Of a DNA stretch of 32,087 nt, positions 1 to 18,971 are shown piece by piece. Every line of letters starts with the position of its first letter. The first letter of the stretch is position 1. A program made the translations under genes and the position numbers. The stretch spans positions 1 to 32,087 of the forward strand of contig MHBE01000012.1 of assembly GCA_001803205.1 (NCBI GenBank), read 5' to 3'. The DNA is from Lentisphaerae bacterium GWF2_38_69 (GTDB taxonomy: Bacteria; Verrucomicrobiota; Lentisphaeria; Victivallales; GWF2-38-69). Under the pieces are notes generated by a model that saw only the letters and a program-made list of their open reading frames with translations, was not told where the DNA came from and did no database searches.

Positions 1-238
1 CAAGATACCCTGGTACCAATCTGGTATTAAGATATGAGAGAATCGGCGAAACATGATTGCATGTGTCATCCTTTTGTCCCCCAGATCAAGATTCCTGAAC
101 TTAAACAATGAGGTTGCAGTTGAATTTTGATGACAGACCAATAGAGTAAGTCCAATTCGTTACGAGATAACACGTACTATCTCCCTATCAAAAGAAAAAC
201 AAAAATATATTATCTTTGGATAATACAGAGGGAAGTTG
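1..238. other. Leader region; possible C-terminal scrap of an upstream gene
   Basis: No complete gene is visible. On the plus strand, positions 3-56 form an open frame ending in TGA (reads RYPGTNLVLRYERIGET), which could be the last codons of a gene starting before the window, but it is too short to identify. The rest is AT-rich leader. A purine-rich ribosome-binding site (GAGGGA, about 228-233) stands just before the radical SAM start. Confidence 0.3.
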
Positions 239-1753: not shown

Positions 1754-1773
1754 AATATAGAGAATTTTGTAGA

Positions 1774-2388
1774 ATGACGCCAAATAAATTTCACTACTAT
1801 GACGGAAAGATATATAAATGCATTTTTGATCCAGTCTTGAAAGAAGTAAGAGCAATAATTACCGAGCAGATTCCATCAGGCAGCAAAGTTATCGACATAG
1901 GATGCGGTACCGGAGCGCTGGCTTTTAAGCTTGCGAAGTCATGTGAACTAGTAACAGGTATAGAACTTTCTTCCAGAATGATAACATTTGCAGATAAACG
2001 CCGCCGTGAAAAAAAAATCGATAATATTGTATTCGTTCATTCCGACGCCGCTTATTTGCCAAGCATAAAAGATAAAAAGTATGACTATGCTGTAATGTCC
2101 ATGATAATGCATGAGCTGCCATTAAAATACCGCTCAGGTATTCTTAACGAGGCTGTTCGCATAGCAAAAAAAATCATTATAGCTGATTATTCAACTCCTC
2201 TGCCTTTTAACCTGCATGGGACTATTGTACGAGCAGCAGAGTTTTTTGCAGGCATTGAACATTTTTCAGGTTTCAGAAGTTATCAGAAAAACGGAGGAAT
2301 TTATGGGTTTCTTGAAGAGAAAGCCTTACAGGTAAAGTCACAACTAAACGACAGCAGCGGCGTATTTAGCATAGTCCAAGCACAATAG
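1774..2388 (+). CDS. Class I SAM-dependent methyltransferase
   Basis: This is a 204-residue methyltransferase. Motif I is clear at residues 39-47 (VIDIGCGTG), followed by the acidic loop (TGIELSSRM), motif II/III (VHSDAAYLP) and a motif IV region (YDYAVMSMIMHEL). The overall pattern is UbiE/Methyltransf_11-like, on the short side for the family. There is no signal peptide, so it should be cytosolic. It begins 20 bases after the radical SAM gene on the same strand, which suggests one transcript and possibly one pathway (modifying a lipid or quinone-like molecule); that link is inference. It ends convergently, 23 bases from the stop of the next minus-strand gene, and I see no strong hairpin terminator between them. 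Confidence 0.8.
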   Translation: MTPNKFHYYDGKIYKCIFDPVLKEVRAIITEQIPSGSKVIDIGCGTGALAFKLAKSCELVTGIELSSRMITFADKRRREKKIDNIVFVHSDAAYLPSIKDKKYDYAVMSMIMHELPLKYRSGILNEAVRIAKKIIIADYSTPLPFNLHGTIVRAAEFFAGIEHFSGFRSYQKNGGIYGFLEEKALQVKSQLNDSSGVFSIVQAQ

Positions 2389-2411: not shown

Positions 2412-3155
2412 TTACTTATTTTTCTTTGATTGATCCAATGAGCTTTTTATTTCCGAAGATACATATTTCCTGAAATCCGGTGATTTTTTTTCATATGCCC
2501 TGGTAAGAGCTCTCAAATAACCGCTATCATAATAAATCCATCCACTTTGACTTTCTATAGCCGAAAATGTCTTGATTGAAAGAGGCATTCCTTTTGAATC
2601 ATATATCTGAGCATCGAATGTCAGGTAAGAGAAGCCATAAGTGTTAGGAACCCCCATTGCCTGAGGAATAAAACCGATGATGCTAAGCCCGAACATTGAA
2701 TATTTAGTTTGCCAATCCATCCTTTCGATGGAAATTTTAATTATAAAATCGGGAAGTTCTTTTCCAGTAATAAGAGTTGAAATCTCTGCAGAGTCAGGAG
2801 ATGCAACAACTGTATTGGCAATTCCTGATGCCTGGAGGTCTTCAGAAACAAGCCTTGCAAAGTCTGCTTCATAATCATAATTATACCCATTAGCCACATA
2901 TACAAAATGTTCCGGTTCTTCAATTATTCTAATATACGGAACAAACGGGATATATGCCTCATAAACGGGTGTCGTTCCGGCATGTCCTCTCATATCAAGA
3001 GGCTTCATAACAACTATCTTTTTGACTAAAGGCTGTTCATCAATCCTCTTGTCAGGAGTATATCCGTAACTTAGTGATGGATACGAACATCCCTGAATAA
3101 AAGCTGCTAGAGCTGATAGAAAGAAGAAAAAAAGCGTTTTGGTTTTTAAATCCAT
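2412..3155 (-). CDS. Outer-membrane lipoprotein of unknown function (last gene of the lipoprotein cluster)
   Basis: This is a 247-residue lipoprotein: a poly-Phe hydrophobic stretch ends in FIQGC with the acceptor Cys at residue 23. The mature part has a KIVVMKPLDMRG strand like the first strand of LpoB/YajG-type domains, and mid-protein a hydrophobic 'MFGLSIIGFIPQAMGVP' segment before further strands, a pattern I associate with uncharacterised periplasmic lipoproteins. A longer reading from GTG 3167 overlaps the previous stop by 4 bases, but the AGGAG element lies on or before that GTG, so ATG 3155 (11 bases after AGGAG) is preferred. It sits 8 bases after the LpoB-like gene and is the promoter-distal end of the cluster. 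Function not known. Confidence 0.72.
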   Translation of the reverse strand: MDLKTKTLFFFFLSALAAFIQGCSYPSLSYGYTPDKRIDEQPLVKKIVVMKPLDMRGHAGTTPVYEAYIPFVPYIRIIEEPEHFVYVANGYNYDYEADFARLVSEDLQASGIANTVVASPDSAEISTLITGKELPDFIIKISIERMDWQTKYSMFGLSIIGFIPQAMGVPNTYGFSYLTFDAQIYDSKGMPLSIKTFSAIESQSGWIYYDSGYLRALTRAYEKKSPDFRKYVSSEIKSSLDQSKKNK

Positions 3156-3163
3156 AATGAATA

Positions 3164-3757
3164 TCACTCCTGAATCTTTCTTATTTCCTTCTCATCACGC
3201 CACTCTATTATACCCGTTTTGAGATTTTTCAGGCTCATTGTGAACTTATAATAAACATTGATACCCCCATTGGTCTGCTTTTGTTTTATTTCAGATAAAT
3301 TTGACACAAGCAGATATTCAGGAGCAAGGTTTGTTCCGTATTGAGTCGCGGTATTCTGGTCATACAAGCCGCTTTCCTGCTGATTTTTTATTTCGTCTAT
3401 GGTTTCCTGATTCGAAGCTTTGTCAGTGAAACGGAATTTTCCGGAACGAAGAAGTTTTGTCACGATAGAATCTGTGAGAGACTGTGTGTCTATATGCTGC
3501 ATTGTTTTATTATTAACCCTGGCAACTTCAAGAATAGGTCTGCGGTTTCTTGTAGCATCAACTATCGGAGGAAAAGTCATGAGTGAATTTACCATAGTTG
3601 AAGCTATCTGCTGCAAATCGCTTGACCCGAAATCTGTAGAAACCGGTGTTGCCGACCCGGCATCCCCGTATTTTACTGTAGACTGACAGGAAACAAGAAT
3701 TGAAATGAGTGCGAATAATGTAGCAAGAAAAGCAATTTTTGAATATTTATTTTCCAT
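3164..3757 (-). CDS. lpoB: LpoB-like penicillin-binding-protein activator lipoprotein
   Basis: This is a 197-residue lipoprotein with a lipobox LVSC (Cys 24), a Thr/Ser/Asp linker, then a globular domain matching the LpoB family: 'RPILEVARVNNKTMQHIDTQSLTD', 'LRSGKFRF', 'GTNLAPEYLLVSNLSEI', 'YKFTMSLKNLKTGIIEWRDEKEI'. In E. coli, LpoB reaches from the outer membrane through peptidoglycan to stimulate the bifunctional synthase PBP1B. Here the linker is short, so reach may differ. A YcfL-like gene lies directly upstream, the same ycfL-lpoB order as in enterobacteria, which strengthens the call. A GGTGG element and a TGGTATAA motif lie just before the ATG. Whether it activates a PBP in this organism is inference. 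Confidence 0.82.
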   Translation of the reverse strand: MENKYSKIAFLATLFALISILVSCQSTVKYGDAGSATPVSTDFGSSDLQQIASTMVNSLMTFPPIVDATRNRRPILEVARVNNKTMQHIDTQSLTDSIVTKLLRSGKFRFTDKASNQETIDEIKNQQESGLYDQNTATQYGTNLAPEYLLVSNLSEIKQKQTNGGINVYYKFTMSLKNLKTGIIEWRDEKEIRKIQE

Positions 3758-3796
3758 ATTAGTTATACCACCATAGTTTTAATTTAATAAGTTCTA

Positions 3797-4234
3797 TTAG
3801 AATAATGGTTTGAGTCTCCACTTGATGACAGAATCGCTATCATCTGCTTCACGGATCTTTATTTTAAAGGATTTTGCTGAGGGATTGGGAGCCAAACCTT
3901 GAATCGTTCTTGTTTCTCTTCCATTCAAATAGATCGGCATCCAGGCAGTGCTTCCCTCGTCGACTTCCATTCCATCAGAGTCGAACCATGAGAATTTATA
4001 CTCGAGAGTATAGGGATTACTTATACCGTTTTCAAGCTGCATATTTACCTTGAGCAGCCCATTAACAAATTTGCTTTTTGTATCAAGAACCTTGATATCC
4101 ACGGGACTGTTTTTGTAGTTTACAGTAGCTGCTCCCTGAGAGGAACCGTCAATGTCCATTACGGCGGTAGAGCATCCTCCGATAAAAACAACCGTTAGAG
4201 CTGTCAGAATAAAAACTATTGTTGTTCTTTTCAT
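3797..4234 (-). CDS. YcfL-like lipoprotein (DUF1425)
   Basis: This is a 145-residue lipoprotein with a lipobox IGGC (Cys 21) and an immunoglobulin-like beta domain of the YcfL/DUF1425 type: 'LLKVNMQLENGISNPYTLEYKFSWFDSDGMEVD' leading to 'GRETRTIQGLAPNPSAKSFKIKIRE'. The family is of unknown biochemical role but is repeatedly found beside lpoB, as here (39 bases upstream of it). AAAGG stands 7 bases before the ATG. The length is normal for the family. I infer a partner or stabilising role for the LpoB-like lipoprotein. Confidence 0.8.
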   Translation of the reverse strand: MKRTTIVFILTALTVVFIGGCSTAVMDIDGSSQGAATVNYKNSPVDIKVLDTKSKFVNGLLKVNMQLENGISNPYTLEYKFSWFDSDGMEVDEGSTAWMPIYLNGRETRTIQGLAPNPSAKSFKIKIREADDSDSVIKWRLKPLF

Positions 4235-4284
4235 ACATAGACCTTTTTAATTATAGTAAATTCTTATGATAAATTATTTTTCTA

Positions 4285-5418
4285 TTATTGCTGCGAGTTA
4301 GAGGGTTCTGCCGGTTTATCTTGGGAAGCGCTTTGATCAGAAGATTCATTACTTTGAACTTCTACCTCATTATCGCTATCAAATGAAAGTGGTTTTTCTG
4401 ATGATCCAGGTGTCATGGGAGCAGGTTCTGCAGGTACTCTTCCGGCTGCCTCAGGCAAAGAACCTCCTGGAGCTGAAACAGGAACAGAATATTCCTTCTG
4501 GTCTTTAGCAACTATTTTTACAATACATCCCTTTGCTACGCCAAGATCCTGTCCTTCAAGTTTCGCATAGGACTGTTTTGCATCAGATCTAATGAGTGTC
4601 CCCTTCCCCACAGATACTTCATTACGAAAAATTTCGCCTGAATCTTCATCTTTTACATCCTCATACGCAAAAAACTCTACAGCTATGCCTTGTTTGAAAT
4701 CAGCCTGATTCCCACGATTTATCAGAATCTGTTTTCCGGTTATTGCTATTACTTTTGCTGGACGGATTAACTTAATTACTTCCTGACAGAGCGCGTTGGC
4801 CAGATCCTTTGCAAGCTCCACATTTAGAGCGTTGCTTCCCTGAATAAACTTTTCATTGCGCGCATCCTGCACCATTTCGTTTTTCGTCATCTGCATACTT
4901 GCTGCTTCAGGCAAATATTGTCCTGTAGTAGTATCCACTATCGCCACGGTTACTGACATATAAAGTTTGCGTCCCATTGAGAAGCGATGGATGTCCTTGT
5001 ATTCCTGAATATCGACCATATCTTCAAATCCATCAATCTGAGGAAGCAAAACATATCTTGCTCCTGCCATCTTCCCGAGTTGCGCGGCATCCTTATCATT
5101 CACATCAACGGCAGTAGCAGCAAATCCCTGTTCCTGTTCAAGATCAGATTTCCTTTTGCGTTCAAGCAGTTGAAAAACTCTTGTCGCGCTTAAGGCAGAA
5201 ATAAATTGAGTGTCAAGAGATTCAGCCATCCGTTTCAAAGATTCAGCTTTACCAGCAGTTGCAGCTGATTGAATTACTGAAGGCTGAATTTCGAGTTTTC
5301 CCACATATATTCCAGGCTGTTCGCCTTTCGCAAGCTCTTCGGCTTTCGCGTTCGACAGCATAAAGATAGATCCCATAAAAAGAACTGAAGCGCATAAAAC
5401 ATTTTTCATATATCTCAT
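4285..5418 (-). CDS. CsgG/HfaB-like secreted protein with acidic low-complexity tail
   Basis: This is a 377-residue exported protein. The signal peptide ends SNAKA|EE (about residue 26) with no lipobox, unlike true CsgG. The body resembles the CsgG/LpoB-type alpha-beta fold: 'SLDTQFISALSATRVFQLLERKRKSDLEQEQ', 'AQLGKMAGARYVLLPQIDGFED', 'MSVTVAIVDTTTGQYLPEAAS', and 'ALNVELAKDLANALCQEVIKLIRPAKV'. A beta-rich domain follows (ILINRGNQADFKQGIAVEFF), then a Pro/Ser/Glu/Gln-rich tail of roughly 50 residues. CsgG forms the curli secretion pore; the transmembrane strands cannot be confirmed here, so pore activity is doubtful. ATG 5418 is chosen because AAAGGA lies 8 bases upstream, whereas the frame extends back to 5448 into the preceding gene. 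Confidence 0.72.
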   Translation of the reverse strand: MRYMKNVLCASVLFMGSIFMLSNAKAEELAKGEQPGIYVGKLEIQPSVIQSAATAGKAESLKRMAESLDTQFISALSATRVFQLLERKRKSDLEQEQGFAATAVDVNDKDAAQLGKMAGARYVLLPQIDGFEDMVDIQEYKDIHRFSMGRKLYMSVTVAIVDTTTGQYLPEAASMQMTKNEMVQDARNEKFIQGSNALNVELAKDLANALCQEVIKLIRPAKVIAITGKQILINRGNQADFKQGIAVEFFAYEDVKDEDSGEIFRNEVSVGKGTLIRSDAKQSYAKLEGQDLGVAKGCIVKIVAKDQKEYSVPVSAPGGSLPEAAGRVPAEPAPMTPGSSEKPLSFDSDNEVEVQSNESSDQSASQDKPAEPSNSQQ

Positions 5419-5444
5419 AATTGGTTTCCTTTCATATAATTCTA

Positions 5445-6680
5445 TCAATAACGATGAATAATTCTTGTAAGCTGTTCTGCAAAACCGTCAGCTCTGATGT
5501 AACTGTTTTTCAGGAAAACTTCTCCGCCAGAAGAAAGTTTTTCCTTCGAATCCGCATCTGCCTGACTCTGCTGTTTTGCAATATCGATTTCAGCGTAAGT
5601 AGTAGCTTTTTCAAGTTCGAGAGATTGTTTGAAAGCAGCCAAATCCTTAAATTTAGCCTGTCCGTCAGCAGTGAATTCCAGAGAAACAGTAAGCTTCTGA
5701 TTTGGATAAATATTCACAGTCTGCTCCCACGGCTCAAAATATTGCCTTGTTATTCTTAACTGATGCAGACCCGGTTTTGTAGTAAAGTTTCCGGGTGGAG
5801 AACCAATAGCTGCTCCATCAAGTTCCGCAGTAGCTCCCGGAACATTGCAATCAAGGGAAAATTGAACAGAAGTAGAATTTTTCAGCGATGTATTTTTTAT
5901 TTTTTCGATATTCTTTGCGATATTATCAGCGAGGACTGAAGTTCCTGAAGTCAGCAGTTTGTCAACAATATTATCCATCAGGATAGAGATACTCTGATTC
6001 TGATTAATATTTAGCGATGGCGTATACATATCCCCATAGATTGATTGCCCTGTCGTTCCATCCATAACTATGATAGTCAGGGGAAGGGTAAAAATATCAA
6101 CTTGATTATTGGTCTTATAAATCGTTCCCTCTCCATTAAAAACTTTTCTTTCATGCCCCAGCTTTCCCATCGAAGCAACAATCATGTATTTAGCATCCAG
6201 GATTTGTGATATGCGTAGAGCTGATGATTTAGCAATACCTCCATCTTTGGTTTCAGCTGTCATAGAATGTTCAGGCTCACTATTTTTAGATACTTCTCCA
6301 GCAGTTGTCATACTGCTATTTGTCGGCGTAGTGGTAGCCGAAACCATAAATGACTGGGCGTATTTATAAATATTGTCATCGGATTCGTCAGATTCGCTGA
6401 ATTTCTGAATTATATCTTTCCAGGTCATGACAGAAATTCCTTTATCTGCTAATTTTGAACACAGCATATCATTAAAAGTATTAATCTCGTTATTCAGCTC
6501 CTTTCCTCCATTATTTCTAACGAACACAGCTGTTTCCAACGAGCTGTTGTCTGAATCTTTAGAGGTTTTTAATTGTCCTCTAACGATTCCTGTGTCAGGA
6601 TCAATGGCAAACAAAATTACGGAAAAGCTTAACGCTACTGTTATTAATAAAACCTTTATCAGTATCTTTTTTTGATTCAT
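5445..6680 (-). CDS. Exported CsgG-like protein with C-terminal PEGA domain
   Basis: This is a 411-residue exported protein with a hydrophobic signal (LLITVALSFSVILFA, cleavage likely near FA|ID). The middle resembles the CsgG/FlgT-like nucleotide-free fold ('FNDMLCSKLADKGISVMTW', 'ISQILDAKYMIVASMGKL', 'TLPLTIIVMDGTTGQSIYGD', 'ILMDNIVDKLLTSGTSVLAD'). Residues about 268-333 form a PEGA domain ('CNVPGATAELDGAAIGSPPG', 'PGLHQLRITRQYFEPWEQ'), an extracytoplasmic beta module. The helical C-terminus is Lys/Glu/Gln-rich. The first in-frame ATG (6695) overlaps the GGGAG element, so ATG 6680, 8 bases downstream of it, is the likely start. The next gene's ribosome-binding site lies in the 26-base gap after it, indicating one operon. 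Confidence 0.75.
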   Translation of the reverse strand: MNQKKILIKVLLITVALSFSVILFAIDPDTGIVRGQLKTSKDSDNSSLETAVFVRNNGGKELNNEINTFNDMLCSKLADKGISVMTWKDIIQKFSESDESDDNIYKYAQSFMVSATTTPTNSSMTTAGEVSKNSEPEHSMTAETKDGGIAKSSALRISQILDAKYMIVASMGKLGHERKVFNGEGTIYKTNNQVDIFTLPLTIIVMDGTTGQSIYGDMYTPSLNINQNQSISILMDNIVDKLLTSGTSVLADNIAKNIEKIKNTSLKNSTSVQFSLDCNVPGATAELDGAAIGSPPGNFTTKPGLHQLRITRQYFEPWEQTVNIYPNQKLTVSLEFTADGQAKFKDLAAFKQSLELEKATTYAEIDIAKQQSQADADSKEKLSSGGEVFLKNSYIRADGFAEQLTRIIHRY

Positions 6681-6730
6681 GAAACACACTCCCATCGTAA
6701 GTATTCAGTAAACTATGTTATCAAACAAAC

Positions 6731-6759
6731 GGGCAGCTCGGAGATCTGTCCCTACCTTA
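6731..6759. repeat. Partial copy of the GC-rich intergenic palindromic repeat
   Basis: The block CAGCTCGGAGATCTGTCCC followed by TACCT in the 193-base gap 6681-6873 matches 28234-28257 with one substitution. It appears to be the right end only of the longer element seen at 28151-28258. The rest of the gap is AT-rich with no gene visible. Confidence 0.65.
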
Positions 6760-6873
6760 ATTCAACCGCATTGAAGAATAGTTTATCAGATTCTTTCTCC
6801 ATTTCGATAGTTTAGTCAAGCTTAATTATCATTACGGGAACAGAAGTTTTTTCCGGAGTACTTAAATATAAAT

Positions 6874-7545
6874 TTAAAAAGGTTCTGTTTCATTTGATGA
6901 AGGGATAAAATCAATTTCAGAGGAAAGCGGTTTGACTCTAGTTGTTTTAATTTTGGAGAGCTTTGCTGTCAGTTCCGGCATCATTGTGTTTATGCAGTTC
7001 TCCATGGCTTCGAGTAGTACATCCTGATATTCTCCAGCTGTAGTAAAAACAGGAATAGCTGAAGCTTCTCCCTGGTAGGATTTGGAGAAAACTACTCTGT
7101 TATTATCTTTCAGGTAAATATATATAGAGACATCTGCCTTATATGAAAAACCATGTATATCGCAATAAAGTTGCGTAAGAGTAGAATCTATTACAAACCC
7201 GTCTTTAGTAGTTTCCTCCGCTTTTACCGCGTTGTACCCTGCTGCCCTGAGATTTTCTATTAGCGTTTCCTGAACCCACTCTTTAACAGGCCTTTTGGCC
7301 AAAACATCCGCTGTATGTATTCCAAAACCATTTCTTACATATCCGATAAAGTTAGGGTTTACCCCTCTTATATCTTCCGGTTCCGACACATGTACTATTT
7401 CAATATCGGTTTTGGTTTCAGTATTCATTTCCTGAGAGGGAACAGGTGTAAACTCAATTTCACGATCGTAAAACGCGCATCCCCCGCAAGTCAGAAATAG
7501 CGGGATTGACAACATCGATATGATTTTAAATAAAGATTTATTCAT
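6874..7545 (-). CDS. YajG-like lipoprotein ending in T-E-P-F
   Basis: This is a 223-residue lipoprotein with an acceptor Cys at residue 23 (LTCGGC). The region 'IRGVNPNFIGYVRNGFG' followed by 'VKEWVQETLIENLRAAGYNAV' and the strand 'ADVSIYIYLKDNNRVVFSKSYQGEAS' follow the plan of YajG-type lipoproteins (an N-terminal strand, an amphipathic helix with a W-x-x-x-x-L pattern, then a resistance/oligomer-like sheet). No enzyme motif is seen. The last residues are NETEPF, resembling the DEEPF and TEEPF ends of two other lipoproteins nearby. The start is ATG with only a weak upstream GGA. It lies 26 bases downstream of the coiled-coil gene, in the same transcriptional run. Family assignment is moderate; function unknown. 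Confidence 0.65.
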   Translation of the reverse strand: MNKSLFKIISMLSIPLFLTCGGCAFYDREIEFTPVPSQEMNTETKTDIEIVHVSEPEDIRGVNPNFIGYVRNGFGIHTADVLAKRPVKEWVQETLIENLRAAGYNAVKAEETTKDGFVIDSTLTQLYCDIHGFSYKADVSIYIYLKDNNRVVFSKSYQGEASAIPVFTTAGEYQDVLLEAMENCINTMMPELTAKLSKIKTTRVKPLSSEIDFIPSSNETEPF

Positions 7546-7571
7546 TCCAAGAAGCAGTATATCATATGCGG

Positions 7572-9062
7572 CTATTTTTTTTGACGCTTTTTTAGTTCAT
7601 TTCTTACTTCATTTAACTGGTTCATTATTTTTATCCGGTTAGTTTCCAGCTGTTCTCTCAGCATCTCCTTCCTTTTATATTCTTCATTAAGAACGCAATA
7701 GTTTGTCCAGACAAGGGCTGTATCAAGTGTATTTTTTGTTACCGTAGTAACACCGTAAAGAGGTGAAGGCGTAAACTTTGTCGGAGCAGATATAATTGAA
7801 TCTCCGATCATCAGGGCGCCTTGCTCTGCAAATTCTTTGAGTTCTCCTTTATCTGCGTAGTCAAGCAGATCTAAAGTATCTTTAGCCTTAGAAACTTGTC
7901 CAACATCTTTTGACAATCTTATAGCGTCAACAGAATCTCTCATGGCTTCAATTTTATCTGCGCCGGGCTGAAACTCTATTGCTCTGTGAATCATTCTTTC
8001 AGAATTCCTGTCTGCAGCCAAAGAAGTGTACCCCATTGCTATACTCATTACTGCATCAGCGGTTGCTTTAACTGCTTCCTCTTTGCCGGCAATTGCGTCA
8101 CTTTCCACATTGTTGAAGCCCTTTACATTGTCAGTCATCAAGTTCAGATTCTGTTTAAGCGCTTCAGTCAGTGCTTCTTTCTTTTTTTCCAGTCTTTCAC
8201 TGCTCATAGACGCATACGGATTTGGTTTTGATTCATCTGAGATGATAGGCGAGCCATAAAGTAAAGAATCGTCTTTCCTTAGCAATTCAGGCATTGAGTA
8301 CTTTGATTCATGCAAATCAACAGCAGCAGGATTACTGGACATTTGGGACTTGTCTTGCTCAGGAGTAAATGGATAATCTTTAACATCATCAGGCATATCC
8401 AATCTGGATTTATTTTCTCCTGCCGCAAAAGGATAATCTTTGATATCGTCCGGAATATCCCATTGGGATTTGATTGTCTGAACGGAAAGGTCTTTCTTAT
8501 TTGATCCCGAATTAATTTCCTGAGAACTGCGGATATTGTCAGCTTCATCCAGAATGTTTCTGCCCAGATTAGCATCAGGTTTACGGAAGAGGTTCGACAA
8601 GTGGGGATCATCCGCAATTGTTCCAGGTCCGTGAAGTCGACCGTCCGCAGGACGAATAGAAACTCCATGAAACATATAGTCTCCAAAGGGATCAATCGTC
8701 TGAAGGGTTTTCTGGTTATTTTTGAACATTTTCTGCTGATTTTGAAGCATCTGTTTTTGCATATTCTGCTTCAGTTGCTGCTGCATTTTCTGCTGTCGCT
8801 CCATCATCTGTTTATTCATCTTCTGCATTTGAAGCTGTGTCTGCCTGGCCCATTGGGTTTTTGCCTGATTCCAAGCGCTTTCAGCTTCATTTAAATAGCG
8901 ATTTACTTGCGCTCTGTCCCCACTTTTCAAACCTCTTGCAGACTGACGAGCCTGACTAAAAGCATCATTGACCTGGCTTTCCCATTGAGCTTGATATGCA
9001 GCCTTTGTCTCAAAGGGCAAAACAATTAAAATAAGCAGAAAAAAAGGTAAGAAAATCTTCAT
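7572..9062 (-). CDS. Exported Gln/Met-rich coiled-coil protein with internal DIPDD-KDYPF repeats
   Basis: This is a 496-residue exported protein, not recognised as a named family. The signal peptide ends ETKA|AYQ. Residues about 74-122 are almost only Gln, Met, Lys and Asn in a strong helical heptad pattern (for example QKMNKQMMERQQKMQQQLKQ). Around residues 200-245 a unit is duplicated: 'SQWDIPDDIKDYPF' and 'SRLDMPDDVKDYPF'. A second helical region spans roughly 290-400, and the last 40 residues are a basic coiled coil (RIKIMNQLNEVRNELKKRQKK). The start codon overlaps the stop of the upstream TPR gene in TAATG, so translation is coupled, arguing the two products act together. It is probably a periplasmic scaffold; that is inference. 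Confidence 0.7.
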   Translation of the reverse strand: MKIFLPFFLLILIVLPFETKAAYQAQWESQVNDAFSQARQSARGLKSGDRAQVNRYLNEAESAWNQAKTQWARQTQLQMQKMNKQMMERQQKMQQQLKQNMQKQMLQNQQKMFKNNQKTLQTIDPFGDYMFHGVSIRPADGRLHGPGTIADDPHLSNLFRKPDANLGRNILDEADNIRSSQEINSGSNKKDLSVQTIKSQWDIPDDIKDYPFAAGENKSRLDMPDDVKDYPFTPEQDKSQMSSNPAAVDLHESKYSMPELLRKDDSLLYGSPIISDESKPNPYASMSSERLEKKKEALTEALKQNLNLMTDNVKGFNNVESDAIAGKEEAVKATADAVMSIAMGYTSLAADRNSERMIHRAIEFQPGADKIEAMRDSVDAIRLSKDVGQVSKAKDTLDLLDYADKGELKEFAEQGALMIGDSIISAPTKFTPSPLYGVTTVTKNTLDTALVWTNYCVLNEEYKRKEMLREQLETNRIKIMNQLNEVRNELKKRQKK

Positions 9063-10990
9063 TAGTTAGGCAATGATTTACGAATTTCATTTTGCTCGTT
9101 GTCGAGAAGGTATTGAAGTTCATAATATCTTTCAATTGCTAAATCAACTTTGTCTGTTCCCTGAATAGCAGCCATATAAGCCTGGATATGAAAGAGTGCT
9201 TCCCTGTACTGTTTCAATGACGCATAAACAGATGACAAACTCAAATGAATATCCGGAGAAAGCGGTGCGTATCTAAGCGCCCATTGATATTGAATAAGGG
9301 CATTTTTTATATCTTGAGCATTTTGCGCATTCTTCAAAATAGCTTGTCCTCTTAAATAGTAAGGCTGGGCTTCTTTTGAAAGCCTGGGAGGATTCTGCAT
9401 TTTTGCGATATAGGCCATATTTTTAATAGTAAGAGTATTGTAAAGTTCACCAGAAGGCAGTTCGGAAAGAACAGCATTCATTAGTTTGACTGCCGAAGCA
9501 AAGTCTCCTTTTGCGGCAGACTGGTCTGCTTCTGCCTGAGCGGATTTAAGATTTTCAGCTACGGACTTCAGAATCTGTTCTTTTAATATTGAAGCTGGAA
9601 CAAAACCTGGCTGAAGGGCAAGGGATCTGCTGACGCATTCCGCGGCTCTCGGTAAATTGTTATTGGCAAACCAGACGCAAGCCAGGCGATAATAATCAAT
9701 ATCTGCCTTATCCGGCGACGCGAGACCATTTTCTATTTCTTCCATCCATTCTTTTGATTCGTCAATATGCCCGCACAAAGCGTAGGCGGCGGCGGCAAAA
9801 CCTGATGATGACGACTTATTATCAATACTGCCAAAAGTTTTCTTTGCCTGTTCAATCTTTCCCTGATGAAGTTCTATAACGCCAAGAAAGTAAGTAGAAA
9901 AACCATTGTCAGAGGAAGAACTGCCCATTGCTTGTATTATTTTTTTTGCCTCATCAAGTTTACCTGCTCTAAAAAGCTCTATAGCCCACTCTTTCCGGGT
10001 AGCTTCACTATTGGAGTTTTTTATCCATTGCTCCATGTATGGAATAGCTTCTTTATAAAAACCGGACGCGGACAATATCCTGCTGAAGCTGTAATCAGTA
10101 TTGGGAGTCTTGGCTTGACCTACTACCTGATCCCAATCTTTGCGTGCGGCAGAAAGAGCTATTTGTACTTCTTTTTCCATTCCAAGACTTCTGCAGATTT
10201 CTGCAATTTCCAACCAGGCAACAGGATGCTTTGGTATTGGAGAAAGAACAAGGTATCGAGAATAAAACCGAAGAGCATTTGGAAAATCCTCGTCTCTCTG
10301 CAAAGCGGATGCCTCTAAAAACAGCGTATCTATTCGAGAAGCATCAGTCGCATAAGCTTGACGGAATGCATCAAATGCCGCGCTATTTTCCCATAAAGCC
10401 AATCTAGCTTGCCCAAGGTTTTCGTAGAGCCTGGCAAGTTCTCTGGCTTTAATTACCTGAGAAGTTTCAACCTCAGACATCATACCGCCTGAAGACATAG
10501 ATATTTCGCCTGGAGTATATGCCATATTCACCATAGTTTGCCCCATTTGAGACATCATCATAGTTCCTGCACCGGCTCCAGGCATCATAGGCATCATGGA
10601 CAGCATGCCTGAAAGCATTTGCTGTTCCATCATTTTCTGCTTGGCTTCTTCCTGTTGCTCCTTCATCTTCCTTTCCGATTCCTGCTGAGCTTTGAATGCT
10701 GCCTGTCGGGCTTCTTTTATCTGTTCTTCAGTTTCTGATGCTGATGAAATAGGATATATTGCTATTGCATGTTCAAAAGCATCTGCGGCTTCTGAATAGC
10801 GGTGAGCTTGGAACAAGGCTACTCCCAGTGCGTTTGCCATGCGCCAACTGAGCGGATTGGCTGCCAGATTGGCTCTCGATAAATCAATAGCGTTGGCGGA
10901 TGCGTTCTGGGGATTTTGTTCGGCGCTAGAAGCAACGACAAACAAAATGGTGCTTAAAAGAGAAACAGTACACAAAACTTTAATTCTCAT
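9062..10990 (-). CDS. Exported TPR-repeat protein with Met-rich insertion
   Basis: This is a 642-residue protein with a signal peptide (VVASSA|EQ). TPR-like helix pairs run through it: 'NPLSWRMANALGVALFQAHR' plus 'YSEAADAFEHAIAIYP', 'LGQARLALWENSAAFDAFRQAYA', 'FPNALRFYSRYLVLSP', and near the C-terminus 'KNALIQYQWALRYAPLSPDI' plus 'LKQYREALFHIQAYM'. Between the first and second TPR blocks (about residues 95-175) lies an insert of charged helix followed by a Met/Gly-rich stretch (MLSGMLSMMPMMPGAGAG, then TMMMSQMGQT). TPR arrays bind partner proteins; the Met-rich insert could be a metal-binding or membrane-contacting segment, but nothing proves this. GGAG lies 8 bases before the ATG. It is translationally coupled (TAATG) to the coiled-coil gene. 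Confidence 0.75.
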   Translation of the reverse strand: MRIKVLCTVSLLSTILFVVASSAEQNPQNASANAIDLSRANLAANPLSWRMANALGVALFQAHRYSEAADAFEHAIAIYPISSASETEEQIKEARQAAFKAQQESERKMKEQQEEAKQKMMEQQMLSGMLSMMPMMPGAGAGTMMMSQMGQTMVNMAYTPGEISMSSGGMMSEVETSQVIKARELARLYENLGQARLALWENSAAFDAFRQAYATDASRIDTLFLEASALQRDEDFPNALRFYSRYLVLSPIPKHPVAWLEIAEICRSLGMEKEVQIALSAARKDWDQVVGQAKTPNTDYSFSRILSASGFYKEAIPYMEQWIKNSNSEATRKEWAIELFRAGKLDEAKKIIQAMGSSSSDNGFSTYFLGVIELHQGKIEQAKKTFGSIDNKSSSSGFAAAAYALCGHIDESKEWMEEIENGLASPDKADIDYYRLACVWFANNNLPRAAECVSRSLALQPGFVPASILKEQILKSVAENLKSAQAEADQSAAKGDFASAVKLMNAVLSELPSGELYNTLTIKNMAYIAKMQNPPRLSKEAQPYYLRGQAILKNAQNAQDIKNALIQYQWALRYAPLSPDIHLSLSSVYASLKQYREALFHIQAYMAAIQGTDKVDLAIERYYELQYLLDNEQNEIRKSLPN

Positions 10991-11028
10991 ATTTACTTCT
11001 CCAAAATTATTATTAAAATCAGATAATT

Positions 11029-11814
11029 TTAAAAAGGTTCTTCTGTTGCCCCTGTCGATGGAGTTTTAATTATTTCAGAAAGCGGCTGTGCTTTATAAGT
11101 CCTGTTTAAATAAGAAGATGTTGTCCAGAAAGATGGGTCTTTTTCCGTTATGGTTCCTGCCAGAGTTGTTACTATAAGCTGAGCGATAATACTCTCGTAA
11201 TAATCAGTAATATTTTTTGTTCCGAACATCATCGTTCCGGATTTTTTCGGAAAGTCTGATTCTCCAGGCACTGAAATAAGAGCAGAAGGAGTTAACAAAC
11301 TGATCCAGGCTTCAGATTCAATTTTTAATTCTTTATTAAGCGAAGAACCTTTTATACCATTATAACCGTTCCAGATTCCGGTTTTTATCGCGATGTTCTC
11401 ACTTGTATCGCTTGGCAACGGAAGGATAAGGCCGCAAATCATTACTGTACAAAGCATCCATAGTGTTGTTTTAGTAGTATGAATGTTTGTATTTTGATTG
11501 ATATCGACCCAAAGAGGAATTGCATCAGAAGAATCATCTGTAAAAAGTTCAGGATAACGGCTGACACTTTCTTTTCTGACAAGAGGAAGTATTCTCTTGT
11601 CGAAATCCTTCATGTATTCTCCTTCCCTTTTATTTTTCAGATCATTAGTGTATGAGATACCTTCGACATAAAACTTCCCTGCTGGTGAATTGAGTTTAGG
11701 GTTTTCCTGGGGTTTGATATTAGAATTTAATTTACCCGAATAACATCCGTTTAATAGAAACAGAGTGCTTATTCCCAGTACACTAAAAAGCTTCATAGAT
11801 TTCATAAGTTCCAT
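11029..11814 (-). CDS. Lipoprotein with internal hydrophobic segment and TEEPF C-terminus (paralogue A)
   Basis: This is a 261-residue lipoprotein with an LNGC lipobox (Cys 24). Conserved blocks shared with the protein at 13883-14683 are KFYVEGISYTND, YPELFTDDSSDAIPLWV, LWMLCTVMICGLILPLP, GIWNGYNGIKGSSLN and GESDFPKKSG. The LWMLC block is long and hydrophobic enough to dip into or span a membrane, odd in the middle of a lipoprotein. The end is GATEEPF. I do not recognise a named family. AGGA lies 5 bases before the ATG, and the repeat end TTATACCAG lies just upstream, giving a TGGTATAAG sequence that could be an extended -10 promoter for the whole downstream gene run. Thirty-eight bases separate it from the TPR gene. 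Probably the first gene of the operon. Confidence 0.72.
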   Translation of the reverse strand: MELMKSMKLFSVLGISTLFLLNGCYSGKLNSNIKPQENPKLNSPAGKFYVEGISYTNDLKNKREGEYMKDFDKRILPLVRKESVSRYPELFTDDSSDAIPLWVDINQNTNIHTTKTTLWMLCTVMICGLILPLPSDTSENIAIKTGIWNGYNGIKGSSLNKELKIESEAWISLLTPSALISVPGESDFPKKSGTMMFGTKNITDYYESIIAQLIVTTLAGTITEKDPSFWTTSSYLNRTYKAQPLSEIIKTPSTGATEEPF

Positions 11815-11837
11815 ATACTTCCTGTCTATTAATTAAC

Positions 11838-11875
11838 TTATACCAGTTCCGTTTTGTTTTTCTAACTTACACCTA
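11838..11875. repeat. 38-base intergenic repeat (TTATACCAGTTCC type), copy 1
   Basis: The segment starting TTATACCAGTTCCGTTTTG and ending CTTACACCTA matches 28102-28139 with two substitutions over 38 bases. Both copies lie directly upstream of a minus-strand gene start and are followed on their other side by the GC-rich palindromic repeat. In the second location the segment forms one arm of an inverted-repeat-bounded element; the matching right arm is not evident here. Confidence 0.8.
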
Positions 11876-12130
11876 GACCCGCATCCACGCAGAGCGTGGC
11901 AAGCTCCGGAGTTTATAACGCAGAAGCGTTAGCGTCCGCATATAAGAGGTGCCCACTGTCACCCGGCGCTTTCGGAGCCTTGCTAAGGCGCATGGTTAAA
12001 AAACACGCCCTACCATCCAGTGCATAGATTATTTCCCGTATTAGGTAGGACGCATCCCTGGCCGTCTCCGACTTGCTCGGGCCGTCTCCGAGGCGTTGCT
12101 CCATCTTTGGCCGACCAGTAAATCTTCCGG
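11876..12130. repeat. GC-rich intergenic hairpin/repeat island
   Basis: No credible gene lies between 11815 and 12156. The stretch is visibly more GC-rich than surrounding coding DNA. It holds small perfect hairpins (CCACGC-AGA-GCGTGG at 11885-11899; AACGC-AGAA-GCGTT at 11917-11930) and degenerate pieces of the palindromic family found at 28151 and 30172, such as CACGCCCTACC, GGTAGGACGCATC, GTCACCCGGCGCTTTCGGAG and GTCTCCGAGGCGT. It looks like several nested or decayed copies of one intergenic repeat rather than a single structured RNA, though an RNA cannot be excluded. Confidence 0.65.
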
Positions 12131-12156
12131 ACTGCTCTTTCTATTATGGATCTAAC

Positions 12157-13611
12157 CTAACCAATTGCGCGTTTTTTTAGCCATGGCGCCAAAATAAAAC
12201 CAACAAGCGCAAACGCCAGACCAATATATGCCATATCGAGAAAAGCTTTTCCATAAATATTCATGGTTGCTCCCAGATTAGAAAGCAGCTCAGGTGGAAC
12301 TTTGGCTAAACTTGCCACAGTCCCTGAAAATTCAGCAGAAAGACCACTGCCGATAAAGAACCATGCCCCCATCATAATTCCATACATTTTTGCTGGTGCG
12401 ATCCTTGTTATCATTGCTACGCCCAAAGCACCAATTAAAAGTTCTCCTAAAGAGTAAACTATTAGATATGCTATAACCCAAAGGCATGAAATTTTACCAG
12501 TTCCATTGTCCATCAATGTGCCAACATACAAAATCAGAAAACCAAGAGTGATTATAAGTATTCCCAACGGAAATTTAGTGGTTATTGACAGGTCTTTTTT
12601 TCGCTTTTCCAGGAAATTATAAATCAATGCTAAAATTGGGCCTAGGATAATTACCGATAGTCCATTCAATCCTAAAAATACGGGAGTAGGAATATCAATT
12701 CCAAAAAGGGTTCTGTCCACATTTCTCTGCAGGAAAAGCACTACTGACTGATATAGCTGGTAATAAAGTGAAAAAAAGCCAACTGCAAGAAATATTAAAA
12801 TAAGACAAACCATAATTTTTTTCTTATCCTCCTTAGGTGAGATAATTATCTCCCAAATAAGATAAATAAAAATGAGTCCGCTTAGCACATAAAAACACAT
12901 TGAACCTATCTCAACATAGAGCATCATCATTGCTGACGCAAGTACGCCTAGAATACAGCAAATAACAACAATAAACCACTTGCCAGGATGAAAAGATTTC
13001 ATGCCTGGAGGAGATTCCAAGTTATCTCCGTGTTTTTTAAAAAACATAAACCAGATAAATCCGAAAAATAGGCCTGCAGCAGATATAGCAAATGGGATAC
13101 CCCAGCCGTATGCATCTTTGACAGGCCCGGCAATCAGAGAAGAAGAAAAACTGCCAATATTTATTCCCATGTAATAAAGCGTAAAACCGCTATCTATTCT
13201 TGGGTCATTATCCTCATAAGCGCGCCCCATCATATTAGTGGGAGCTGTCTTAAAAATTCCCGCGCCTATTACAATAAATCCCAGCGCAATAACAAATAAA
13301 AATATATTATTTGAAGGCAGTGCCAGTAATATGAACCCTGTCATTTCGAGCAATAAACCCAAACCTAAGCATCTTTTAATGCCTATTACTTTATCTGCAA
13401 GAAAACCACCAATTGCAGGAGTCAAATACCCCAATGCTATGAAAATCGCACAAAGCTTGAAGGAATCACTATCAGAAAATTTAAAAATATCCTTCAATAT
13501 CAGAACTATAAGAAAGCTTATTATATAATAGCCGAATCTTTCTGACATCGCAGTTACAAAGCTTAAATTAAATACTTTAGGCTGTTTTAGTTTTCCCTTA
13601 ATTTTTTCCAT
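12157..13611 (-). CDS. POT/PTR2-family proton-coupled peptide transporter
   Basis: This is a 484-residue integral membrane protein with about 12-14 hydrophobic helices, the usual length. PTR2 signatures are present: 'SERFGYYIISFLIVLIL' in helix 1, 'GYLTPAIGGFLADKVIGIKR' (the G-G-x-x-A-D loop), and 'FTLYYMGINIGSFSSSLIAG' (the F-Y-x-x-I-N-x-G motif). The family imports di- and tripeptides or similar small molecules with protons. The usual helix-1 E-x-x-E-R motif reads A-M-S-E-R, lacking the first Glu, so coupling may differ. ATG 13611 is preferred over ATG 13644 because GAGG stands 10 bases before it and nothing precedes the other. It is transcribed separately from the lipoproteins on either side, so a functional link to them is unclear. 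Confidence 0.82.
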   Translation of the reverse strand: MEKIKGKLKQPKVFNLSFVTAMSERFGYYIISFLIVLILKDIFKFSDSDSFKLCAIFIALGYLTPAIGGFLADKVIGIKRCLGLGLLLEMTGFILLALPSNNIFLFVIALGFIVIGAGIFKTAPTNMMGRAYEDNDPRIDSGFTLYYMGINIGSFSSSLIAGPVKDAYGWGIPFAISAAGLFFGFIWFMFFKKHGDNLESPPGMKSFHPGKWFIVVICCILGVLASAMMMLYVEIGSMCFYVLSGLIFIYLIWEIIISPKEDKKKIMVCLILIFLAVGFFSLYYQLYQSVVLFLQRNVDRTLFGIDIPTPVFLGLNGLSVIILGPILALIYNFLEKRKKDLSITTKFPLGILIITLGFLILYVGTLMDNGTGKISCLWVIAYLIVYSLGELLIGALGVAMITRIAPAKMYGIMMGAWFFIGSGLSAEFSGTVASLAKVPPELLSNLGATMNIYGKAFLDMAYIGLAFALVGFILAPWLKKRAIG

Positions 13612-13671
13612 ATCAATATGTCCTCTTTTGTGAAACAGAATCATGCGATTTTTACAATATCACCGATTCTA

Positions 13672-13684
13672 CAATGTTACATTG
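13672..13684. promoter_or_regulatory. 13-base perfect palindrome upstream of the peptide transporter
   Basis: CAATGT-T-ACATTG is a perfect dyad 60 bases before the transporter start, within a 271-base gap (13612-13882) that otherwise shows no gene. Its size and place suit a dimeric repressor operator, but there is only one copy in the window and no regulator gene next to it. Part of the gap must hold the transporter promoter; I could not fix a convincing -35/-10 pair. Confidence 0.3.
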
Positions 13685-13882
13685 AAAATTAGTTTTCCAC
13701 CGTAAATGAAATATTAGTTATTCTTTAACGAATTAGTTCCTATTTCTACTATCACTTTATCTCCCGGTATAACCTGAGATACTTAGCATTACCGCAATAC
13801 CGCTTTTTTTCCCATTTCATAGCTGTTTCCTTTATGTGTTAATATTATAACAAATATTCAGCTAAAAAAATGTTTTCGGATA

Positions 13883-14683
13883 TTAGAACGGTTCCTCGTC
13901 AGTGCGAGGCATAGAGTTTTGCATATCTTTAGGTGTTTGAATATTTAAAGAAGGTTGAAGCGCTGAGGGGATTTCCCGATAAGAATTGCCTCCAGTGTAT
14001 TTAGCCCAAAATGTTGAATCTCTACTCATTATTAACTTAGCAAGAGCAGAAGAAACTAGTTTAGCACTTACATCTAGATAGTATTCTTCCAATCCTTGAT
14101 CGAAGCCTGAGTATTCAGGATAATCAGATTCTCCTGATATACCTACAAGGGCAGTAGGATTCCAGCTGGAGAGAAATTCCGAATGCATCTGTATATCATT
14201 GTTAAGTGAAGAACCTCTTATCCCGTCTCTGCCATTCCAGATACCTGCTTGTATTGCGAAGCTATCGTCCTTACTGCCATTGACGGGGAGGATAATGCCG
14301 CATATTCCTGCTGTACATAGGAACCATAAAAAAGATTTAAGTTCGTTAACATCGGTAGATTGTTTAATATTAACCCAAAGCGGAATAGCATTTGAATAGT
14401 CATCTGTAAATAACTGAGGATACATGCTCTGGCATTCTTTGCGAATCAACGCTTCCAAGTCATTCTTAAACCTATCTGTTGCTTTTTCGCCAACTTTATT
14501 CTTGTACACAAAACTTTCTTCATTGGAATATGAAATGCCTTCTATATAGAATTTCGTTCCATCTGCCTTGATGTCGGGACTATTATCCGGTTTAACTTCA
14601 GAAGTTACTTGTACCGATGAGCAGGAACTCACAACAAGCACACTGCATAAAAATAATGCTCTCAGAATTTTTATATTTTGCAT
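13883..14683 (-). CDS. Lipoprotein with internal hydrophobic segment and DEEPF C-terminus (paralogue B)
   Basis: This is a 266-residue lipoprotein with a VSSC lipobox (Cys 21). It is clearly homologous along its length to the protein at 11029-11814: KFYIEGISYSNE, YPQLFTDDYSNAIPLWV, LWFLCTAGICGIILPV, GIWNGRDGIRGSSLN, GESDYPEYSG. The N-terminal and C-terminal 40 residues diverge, but both end in EEPF. It is divergent from the COG3014-like gene at 14813, with 129 bases between the starts. Function unknown; conservation of an internal apolar segment in both copies suggests membrane or partner contact. An older gene duplication, with the peptide transporter now between the copies, is the simplest history. 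Confidence 0.72.
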   Translation of the reverse strand: MQNIKILRALFLCSVLVVSSCSSVQVTSEVKPDNSPDIKADGTKFYIEGISYSNEESFVYKNKVGEKATDRFKNDLEALIRKECQSMYPQLFTDDYSNAIPLWVNIKQSTDVNELKSFLWFLCTAGICGIILPVNGSKDDSFAIQAGIWNGRDGIRGSSLNNDIQMHSEFLSSWNPTALVGISGESDYPEYSGFDQGLEEYYLDVSAKLVSSALAKLIMSRDSTFWAKYTGGNSYREIPSALQPSLNIQTPKDMQNSMPRTDEEPF

Positions 14684-14812
14684 AAACCTATTAGCTATGT
14701 AGATTTTTAGATAAAATTCATATTAATTTAGTCACTATATAGCTGGCAAAAAATTAATCAATACCTTTAATAATGTCAGGCGCATTTATAATAATCATCG
14801 GAATCCTTTAAT
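14684..14812. promoter_or_regulatory. Divergent promoter region between two lipoprotein genes
   Basis: This 129-base AT-rich spacer must drive both the minus-strand lipoprotein and the plus-strand COG3014-like gene. A TATAAT hexamer at 14787-14792 points toward the plus-strand gene, 21 bases before its ATG, but no good -35 is visible, so this is a weak assignment. No repeat of the intergenic families is present. Confidence 0.35.
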
Positions 14813-16492
14813 ATGTTTCGGACTCAATACTTACTTCTAACTTTAATTTCAATCTCATGTCTATTGTTGTTATCTGGATGTTCTTCAAATAACACAGCAA
14901 GGCATATGCGCTCAATTGAAGGAAATCAACCTATTGATACTGAAAGTTTATATCAGGATGGAATTGAAGGAAAAGACCTCAGTCTTGAAATGTATCTTCT
15001 GGAAAAAGGGCGTATATCTCAACTCGAAGGCAATTACAAAGAGAGTTTGAAAGCTTTTAACGGTGAAATCGATCTGCTCAAAGAAAGAGAGCTCAACGAT
15101 GATACACTGCCGGGAGCAGACATCAATGCAGGCTCTGTCCTTGTCAATGACAATTTACTTCCTTATAAAGCCAGACTCTTTGAAATAGAGATGCTCAGAT
15201 TATATCAAGCATATAATTATCTTGCTTTGGGAAGTATGGAAGGAGCCCTTGTAGAAGTAAGAATTTCAGACTATCTGATGCGCGAGGCCGAAAAAAATAG
15301 AAATTTGATCAATTTCCAGGAGGAAAAATTCAGAACTTCTGAAACGGCTGCTTATAAGAAAACATTTGAAAACCAATCTTTAATCGAGAGCGGAAAACTG
15401 GAAAATGATTATTTGCCGCAAGGATTTCCCGACAAATCACTTCCTGCAAATGACCTTCTGACCAGACCTGATGAGACCGAACTTTATCTCGCAACAGAAC
15501 CTATAGATAATCCCTATAATGAATATCCCGCAAGTTCAGATTCTTCACATGAAAACCAAAATTATTATTTCAATCAGATAGAAGATGCCAACAATCAAAG
15601 CTTTGAAGACATGAAAGATATTCTCTCAAAAGCAAATAGTTCTATTTTAAATCCTTATATCCTTTATGTAAGCGGAGTCCTCCACGAAATGAATGGAGAA
15701 AATGACGATGCTTATATTTCCTACAAGCAGGCTCTGCTCCTAATGCCGGAAAACCCTTATTTCAGACAAGACACAATAAGGTTGGCAATCATTTCAGATA
15801 AAGAATACGACCTTGAAAAACTCAAATCTGCCTACCCGCAGGATTATATGCAGGTTGTTGCAACTAACGCATTAAAAAATAAGGGCCGCTTAGTTGTCCT
15901 CTATGAGGAAGGATGGGCTCCCGGAAAAGAACAGAAATTCATCTCTCTGGGTGCGTTTGCCATAGCTTATCCAATTTACAATTTCACATGGAATGAACCC
16001 GCACCTTTAGTGATTGATTCTGAAACAGGACTCCTTGGAACAACATCTCCGGCCTGTTATATGGGAGCTATGGCGTTGAGAGCTTTGCAAGAAGAGTCTA
16101 AGTGGAGGATAATAAGGCAGAGCGCAAGAGCTGCTTTCAAGGCAGGAGTTTATGGATCAGGCGTTACTGCCGCAGCTGTCGGAACTGCAAGTGACAACAG
16201 TTATATGCAGGCTGCCGGTTTAATGACAATGCTGCTTTCTCAAGCTTATAATAATCTCAGCGAAAATGCGGACTTGCGATCCTGGATGACATTGCCGGGA
16301 AATGCCCAAATCATGTCAAAACATCTTCCAAATGGAGAATATAAACTAGTCTTCTCCCCTCACAATTCTGATTTACAACTAAAGGAAAGAGTGGTGATAT
16401 CAGAAAACAAAACAACTATACTATGGGTGGTAAAAGTCGCAAATAGAATGATTTATAAATGTCTATGGCCAAGTTCAACAGTAAATCAATAA
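14813..16492 (+). CDS. COG3014-like TPR lipoprotein
   Basis: This is a 559-residue lipoprotein with a textbook lipobox (LLSGC, Cys 23). It begins with a TPR-like region: 'LEMYLLEKGRISQLEGNYKESLKAFNGE', then 'EIEMLRLYQAYNYLALGSMEGALVEVRISDYLMREAEK'. A later TPR follows ('YILYVSGVLHEMNGENDDAYISYKQALLLMPEN'). The second half has the family block 'GRLVVLYEEGWAPGKEQKFISLG', then an Ala/Gly-rich segment (FKAGVYGSGVTAAAVGTASD) and a final beta-rich part. This is the plan of COG3014 proteins, whose role is unknown but which often neighbour lpoB and ycfL in gammaproteobacteria. Here it is on the opposite strand, about 11 kb from the lpoB-like gene. It ends 15 bases from the convergent FUSC gene. Confidence 0.78.
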   Translation: MFRTQYLLLTLISISCLLLLSGCSSNNTARHMRSIEGNQPIDTESLYQDGIEGKDLSLEMYLLEKGRISQLEGNYKESLKAFNGEIDLLKERELNDDTLPGADINAGSVLVNDNLLPYKARLFEIEMLRLYQAYNYLALGSMEGALVEVRISDYLMREAEKNRNLINFQEEKFRTSETAAYKKTFENQSLIESGKLENDYLPQGFPDKSLPANDLLTRPDETELYLATEPIDNPYNEYPASSDSSHENQNYYFNQIEDANNQSFEDMKDILSKANSSILNPYILYVSGVLHEMNGENDDAYISYKQALLLMPENPYFRQDTIRLAIISDKEYDLEKLKSAYPQDYMQVVATNALKNKGRLVVLYEEGWAPGKEQKFISLGAFAIAYPIYNFTWNEPAPLVIDSETGLLGTTSPACYMGAMALRALQEESKWRIIRQSARAAFKAGVYGSGVTAAAVGTASDNSYMQAAGLMTMLLSQAYNNLSENADLRSWMTLPGNAQIMSKHLPNGEYKLVFSPHNSDLQLKERVVISENKTTILWVVKVANRMIYKCLWPSSTVNQ

Positions 16493-18766: not shown

Positions 18767-18971
18767 AGATTATTGAAAACTCTTACATTGCCGGACATTT
18801 ATTCTTTTAAGAGTTTAATATAAATGCTCTCAAAATACAGATGCAGACAAATTCAAATATCATTTCAATATGATAAAATAATCTAATGCCGTCAATATTG
18901 TCTTGTTTCTGATATTGAATTATTTCAGGAAACTTTATAATTAAATTAAACACTTTCTAACCTCAAGGTCT
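18767..18971. promoter_or_regulatory. Divergent efflux promoter region with a 9-base inverted repeat
   Basis: The 205-base spacer between the FUSC and HlyD genes contains AAACTCTTA (18777-18785) and its exact inverse TAAGAGTTT (18808-18816), 22 bases apart, next to the FUSC start; it could be an operator or a 5' hairpin. A TATAAT at 18936-18941, with TTGAAT 15 bases before it, faces the HlyD gene. No third gene (such as a DUF1656 protein) fits here. Confidence 0.4.

Follow-up and report, generated by a model that had tools for sequence, protein, structure and literature searches.

Contig MHBE01000012.1 from the 3.12 Mb draft genome of Lentisphaerae bacterium GWF2_38_69 (G000) was analysed over its whole length of 32,087 bases, which we call the window. 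It carries a cluster of genes, mainly for exported proteins, that we designate C to N by position (Table 1). Six of them, read in the order N, G, F, E, D and C, form a conserved unit in Lentisphaeria that occurs in variants across Verrucomicrobiota, and the COG3014-YcfL-LpoB part of this unit is also present in Pseudomonadota. The six genes, referred to as the core, encode a COG3014-type lipoprotein (N), a PEGA-domain protein (G), a CsgG/FlgT-like protein (F), a YcfL-like lipoprotein (E), an LpoB-family lipoprotein (D) and a further lipoprotein (C). In the window a conserved operon, likely for an outer-membrane lipoprotein complex, would thus be present in rearranged form.

Conservation of the core in Lentisphaeria and Auribacterota

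A search with F retrieved orthologues of 57-60% identity from four genomes belonging to other families of the same order. The gene order N-G-F-E-D-C on one strand was found at the loci L018, L020, L024 and L025, where the N orthologue lies directly upstream of the PEGA gene, and also at L019, where one extra gene separates N from G and the distance is 1.75 kb. Thus the conserved gene order elsewhere, which the earlier note had looked to as support for its proposal, exists for six genes in five other Lentisphaeria genomes. The core orthologues are 44-69% identical to the window proteins, depending on the gene: 66-69% for D, 62-68% for E and 50-57% for C, each in the same operon position, 44-59% for F, 48-54% for G and 44-49% for N. 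At most core loci adjacent genes overlap or lie a few tens of bases apart.

A near-complete set is present in Candidatus Euphemobacter frigidus (Ca. Auribacterota), where G, F, E and D are followed by a barrel-like gene and then by N; its D protein is 53% identical to that of the window. The barrel-like gene (L029:7574-8245) encodes a protein of 223 aa and occupies the slot after LpoB, replacing lipoprotein C. More distant members of the order have PEGA-CsgG-COG3014-YcfL-LpoB-C (Victivallis-like genomes and others), CsgG-COG3014-YcfL-LpoB or shorter versions. Furthermore, a single ORF (open reading frame) of 490 aa in genome G296 (L097:5960-7432, plus strand) encodes a CsgG/FlgT-like protein fused to a YcfL domain. 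This fusion is evidence that the two proteins associate physically or act together.

Distribution across the phylum and beyond

To avoid selection by the genes under test, 20 Verrucomicrobiota loci from other orders and classes were picked by YcfL (PF07233) alone. COG3014 and LpoB genes were found within 6 kb and on the same strand in all 20 of these loci, which are mostly strong YcfL matches, so that the count applies to loci of this kind. A CsgG or PEGA gene was also present in 17 of the 20. Control loci with a total of 53.7 kb gave no core-gene match. The later counts of COG3014 and LpoB were made with broader profiles, the narrow alignments having missed diverged members. YcfL itself was detected in 168 of the 388 genomes sampled from the phylum. 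Chance clustering was rejected on the result for loci picked by one gene, as was the reading that the CsgG/PEGA part is special to the window genome, in view of its phylum-wide occurrence.

Outside the phylum, Aeromonas caviae (L119) and Azospirillum sp. TSH100 (L118) have COG3014, YcfL and LpoB in the same order and on the same strand, and in the latter an additional CsgG/LpoB-like gene follows two genes on. The ycfL-lpoB-COG3014 neighbourhood that the earlier note had mentioned for proteobacteria was thus seen directly. Unlike the Lentisphaeria operons, these two clusters contain no recognised PEGA protein or C lipoprotein, and in Azospirillum a gene for a DUF6844 protein stands between. This gene (L118:8142-9488) directly follows lpoB, and its product is a possible further member in Alphaproteobacteria. 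Escherichia coli K-12 has kept ycfL-lpoB within hinT-ycfL-lpoB-thiK-nagZ, where both genes are adjacent on one strand and are found by profiles built from the window family; in contrast to the window, no COG3014, CsgG or PEGA gene lies in the 8 kb of this locus.

Being present at 17 of the 20 YcfL loci, CsgG/PEGA genes belong regularly to the operon within the phylum; the three-gene COG3014-YcfL-LpoB core, found in Pseudomonadota as well, is older. Open-access literature searches (COG3014, DUF1425, YcfL-LpoB, LpoB-CsgG/FlgT and CsgG-PEGA) returned nothing describing this operon. The earlier note had considered a CsgG/PEGA/TPR/coiled-coil extension to be new. The CsgG/PEGA part is indeed undescribed in the literature covered, but it is found throughout the phylum, and the TPR and coiled-coil genes do not belong to the unit, as set out below.

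Identity and fold of the core proteins

In the profile scans of the window D, E, F, G and J could be named, the last as a TPR protein; C, I, K, M and N gave no useful match in Pfam or NCBIfam. D matches PF13036 with E=2.9e-45 (154 bits, cut-off 22.3) and reaches 173 bits with the NCBI equivalog model for LpoB, TIGR02722 (cut-off 110.55), whose cut-off is also reached by the LpoB proteins of L018, L020, L024, L029, L107, L053 and L099. The adjoining gene product E matches PF07233 (DUF1425/YcfL) with 2.9e-24 (85 bits, cut-off 28.3). With both proteins over their cut-offs and carrying a lipobox, the LpoB-like and YcfL-like lipoproteins named in the earlier note are borne out. N, whose name comes from the first reading of the sequence, is a candidate COG3014 protein; neither Pfam nor NCBIfam contains a model for this family. 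A gene of the N family adjoins ycfL-lpoB in Aeromonas and Azospirillum.

The earlier note had also seen two CsgG-like proteins, one of them with a PEGA domain. F exceeds the cut-off of the CsgG family (PF03783, 2.5e-8) and G that of PEGA (PF08308, 1.5e-10); G itself has no Pfam CsgG match, and its kinship to CsgG is seen through relatives (E=0.03 at L029; 3e-8 for the PEGA protein of L097 against the CsgG profile). An AlphaFold model of F, which is of low confidence (predicted template modelling score, pTM, 0.45), finds its best fold matches in Vibrio FlgT, which belongs to the flagellar H/T ring, and in the LPHT ring (E=9e-13; PDB 3w1e, 8z5n; about 293 columns), with HpaA, GNA1162, LptE and CsgG at lower ranks. 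Relatives of F show weak FlgT_C matches. However, F has no curated FlgT match (FlgT_M reaches 14.7 bits against a cut-off of 31.2, and FlgT_C is below its cut-off in F and its relatives), and its gene neighbours differ from those of FlgT. Compared with the curli secretion pore CsgG, F shares the PF03783 domain but lacks a lipobox and is nearer to FlgT in fold. The tail of F carries the motif TPGSS(E/D)KPL, which is invariant in Lentisphaeria and Auribacterota and is possibly a docking peptide; in several distant relatives the last residues are ...ATPGW or ...PPGSSERPVKW.

For C, an AlphaFold model built from six sequences (pTM 0.64) has its best PDB match in the DUF330 protein XCC0632 (E=3e-7), followed by an HpaA homologue, LptE and CsgG, and suggests an alpha/beta fold of the PqiC/DUF330-LptE-CsgG type. 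The Neisseria lipoprotein GNA1162 (PDB 4hrv) and the small CsgG-fold lipoproteins PqiC, LptE, HpaA and PelC represent the fold class found among the matches of C and F, although C has no family match at the sequence level. An F-type profile in a relative (L097) also catches LpoB (4.5e-7) and PEGA-type proteins (3e-8). From these fold and profile matches, much of the operon appears to consist of members of one fold family: LpoB, F, G and C carry, or are related to, a common alpha/beta fold (CsgG/FlgT, LpoB, PqiC/LptE), the case for G being weak. Sequence searches of solved structures with the profiles of F, G and C gave nothing meaningful, and that with the D profile gave marginal matches to E. 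coli LpoB only (E about 0.8). Profile-profile comparisons based on shallow alignments of F, G, C and D yielded no significant score, and F had no match in a plasmid collection.

LpoB in genomes without class A penicillin-binding proteins

E. coli LpoB activates the penicillin-binding protein (PBP) PBP1b via the UB2H domain of the latter and thereby stimulates the synthase from the outer membrane; in 2010 LpoB and the PBP docking domain were described as restricted to enterobacteria or gamma-proteobacteria (PMC3060616). No GT51 domain (PF00912) was detected in the window genome or in six close core carriers (G009, G011, G033, G055, G078 and G079). Class A PBPs are therefore missing from these seven genomes, and so are monofunctional glycosyltransferases belonging to the GT51 family, whereas E. 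coli has PBP1b with its UB2H domain. The seven genomes are 78-95% complete, so that any single absence is soft, but incomplete sequence would hardly account for all seven absences at once. Each of the seven has two or more SEDS genes.

The UB2H profile (PF14814) matched at E<=0.1 in 17 of 17 genomes. As a signal of PBP1b these matches were rejected: the four frames that were read (G000, G009, G041 and G055) are UvrB or Mfd, and since the profile also catches these proteins, a UB2H match alone does not indicate PBP1b. The sole match in the window genome is below the cut-off and is UvrB. UB2H gave no match in three class A PBPs that were read from elsewhere in the order. In 137 genomes of the order, LpoB and GT51 are unassociated (both in 9, LpoB only in 43, GT51 only in 18, neither in 67; p=0.66). 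YcfL and GT51 show a mild anti-association in the 388 genomes of the phylum (both in 47, YcfL only in 121, GT51 only in 90, neither in 130; odds ratio 0.56, p=0.01, uncorrected for relatedness), and 121 of the 168 YcfL-bearing genomes have no GT51. The occurrence of class A PBPs is uneven among the families of this sample, one family (f25) having YcfL in 25 genomes and GT51 in 0, another (f22) GT51 in 38 and YcfL in 0. As GT51 is absent and the UB2H matches are UvrB or Mfd, the mechanism of E. coli LpoB cannot be carried over to the window genome. The tie to peptidoglycan synthesis that the earlier note had proposed is, as far as LpoB's known mechanism is concerned, contradicted by the lack of GT51 in the seven genomes, and no UB2H-bearing PBP was found.

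Rearrangement and probable insertion in the window

According to the ORF list, nine consecutive genes, K to C, occupy the minus strand from 11814 to 2412; the transporter gene L, absent from the earlier note's account, and the lipoprotein gene M lie beyond K, followed by N on the plus strand. Signal-peptide-like N termini were found in 11 proteins, namely the products of the nine genes, M and N. A lipobox of the simple pattern is recognisable in C, D, E, K, M and N, H has only a degenerate one (TCGGC), and F, G, I and J have none. This part of the earlier note, nine exported proteins in a row with two more lipoproteins beyond, was an accurate description of the array, as was the TPR and coiled-coil pair joined by TAATG: the J/I junction reads ...AACTAATGAAG..., and the TPR repeats of J exceed their cut-off (TPR_2, 6.5e-17).

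N is the first operon gene in the relatives. In the window it is inverted and lies 8.1 kb from G, with H to M in between. For H, I, J, K and M no counterpart was found in the operon regions of relatives that were read, and I has neither a homologue in 60 related genomes nor a meaningful Pfam match. H is separated from G by a gap of 178 nt, and its match to YajG (PF03923) remains below the curated cut-off (E=1.9e-4, 21.6 bits against 25), so that the YajG-like call is less secure than the earlier note had it. The POT transporter gene is flanked by K and M, which are paralogous to each other (E=5e-59); with this predicted peptide transporter they may form a separate uptake unit (11029-14683). 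A scan for promoters and terminators gave counts near the shuffle expectation. It seems best to regard the genes H to M as inserted independently between N and G, because H, I, J, K and M have no counterparts in the relatives' operons that were read, I has no homologue in 60 related genomes, the 178-nt gap sets the block off and N is split from G only here. Hence the TPR, coiled-coil and YajG-like proteins, K and M, which the earlier note had counted into one assembly, fall outside the conserved unit.

Proposed function and alternative explanations

For the core, complex formation, location and an envelope function are inferred. LpoB, YcfL, COG3014 and C would be held by their lipid anchors at the periplasmic face of the outer membrane, where the non-lipidated CsgG/FlgT-like and PEGA proteins would join them, possibly as a ring or scaffold. 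Such a complex would work in the periplasm and help to maintain the envelope independently of class A PBPs; enterobacteria would later have put one of its subunits to use in activating PBP1b. Several points weigh against this proposal. The complex is deduced from genomes, and the structural model of F is of low confidence. In the window, the COG3014 gene is 8 kb away on the opposite strand. In G011 the core is split over contigs (PEGA-CsgG, LpoB-C and COG3014), each part amid unrelated genes, so that clustering is not obligatory, and two genomes of the same family are without the module; the relatives' genomes are draft assemblies, in which single absences are soft.

The reading that D acts as in E. 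coli by activating a class A PBP via UB2H has the equivalog-level match of D in its favour but is very improbable in view of the seven genomes without GT51, the identity of the UB2H matches as UvrB or Mfd, the three class A PBPs of the order without this domain and the missing association of LpoB with GT51. A reading in which the module activates pairs of SEDS proteins and class B PBPs (RodA/FtsW) and D reaches from the outer membrane to a synthase other than a class A PBP is unlikely but deserves more weight. SEDS genes are present in 8 of 8 genomes tested, so that such a synthase would be available, and the homology of D to LpoB, which acts from the outer membrane to stimulate a synthase of E. 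coli (PMC3060616), points in the same direction. Against it, the listed loci showed neither mreBCD nor rodA next to the operon, no profile search for these genes having been made. Moreover, we are not aware of a lipoprotein of this fold that activates SEDS enzymes.

A secretion system, in which the CsgG-like proteins would make up an export pore of the curli type, is suggested by the PF03783 match of F and by CsgG among its fold matches. We regard this as rather improbable, since F and G, unlike CsgG, have no lipobox, the low-confidence model of F is closest to FlgT, and no curli partners were seen among the window genes scanned (no genome-wide search for CsgA/E/F was made). The resemblance of F to FlgT and the LPHT ring, together with the weak FlgT_M match, could in turn indicate a flagellar T/H-ring component and an operon serving the motor; to this we give hardly any credence, as FlgT_M and FlgT_C stay below their cut-offs and no flagellar genes were seen in the window, a genome-wide flagellar search not having been made. 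A single machine of nine to eleven genes, to which H, K, M and the TPR/coiled-coil pair would also belong, would agree with the common strand, the short gaps and the export of every product. It is doubtful to a similar degree as the export pore, given the lack of counterparts of H, I, J, K and M in the relatives' operons and of homologues of I in 60 genomes, the 178-nt gap and the separation of N from G only in the window.

Gene coordinates and neighbouring genes

Table 1. Genes of the cluster in the window (positions are those of the 32,087-base contig)
Gene	Position	Strand	Product and features
C	2412..3167	-	Lipoprotein, 251 aa; end of the core operon; lipobox IQGC
D	3164..3757	-	LpoB-family lipoprotein (TIGR02722/PF13036); lipobox LVSC
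E	3797..4234	-	YcfL/DUF1425 lipoprotein; lipobox IGGC
F	4285..5448	-	Exported CsgG/FlgT-like protein (PF03783); no lipobox
G	5445..6695	-	Exported protein, C-terminal PEGA domain; CsgG-like N-terminal region, kinship via relatives only
H	6874..7545	-	Candidate YajG-like lipoprotein, PF03923 below cut-off; inserted block
I	7572..9062	-	Exported low-complexity/coiled-coil protein; inserted block
J	9062..10990	-	Exported TPR protein; TAATG overlap with I; inserted block
K	11029..11814	-	Lipoprotein, paralogue of M; lipobox LNGC; inserted block
L	12157..13644	-	POT-family (PTR2) transporter between K and M (PF00854, 9.3e-49)
M	13883..14683	-	Lipoprotein, paralogue of K; lipobox VSSC
N	14813..16492	+	COG3014-type lipoprotein; lipobox LSGC

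On the side of C, the window encodes a radical SAM protein with an HMPTM-type zinc ribbon and then a small methyltransferase (236-2388, plus strand). On the side of N, an exporter of the FUSC family and a membrane fusion protein of divergent HlyD type (16508-19940) are likely an aromatic-acid efflux pair.

Conclusions

Taken together, the role of LpoB as activator of PBP1b in enterobacteria is probably derived. Tentatively, and with somewhat less confidence than we place in the proposed complex encoded by the core, we suggest that LpoB was ancestrally one member, alongside COG3014, YcfL and proteins of the CsgG/FlgT fold, of an outer-membrane complex in which class A PBPs had no part; the PBP1b role would then be late and lineage-specific, and many annotations as 'penicillin-binding protein activator LpoB' would be misnamed. 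Caution is therefore advisable, and the function of LpoB should not be transferred by name. For the little-studied COG3014 and YcfL proteins a defined gene set is now at hand. The presence of an LpoB-family operon across a phylum, in bacteria without a class A PBP, makes the origin and the original function of LpoB directly testable.

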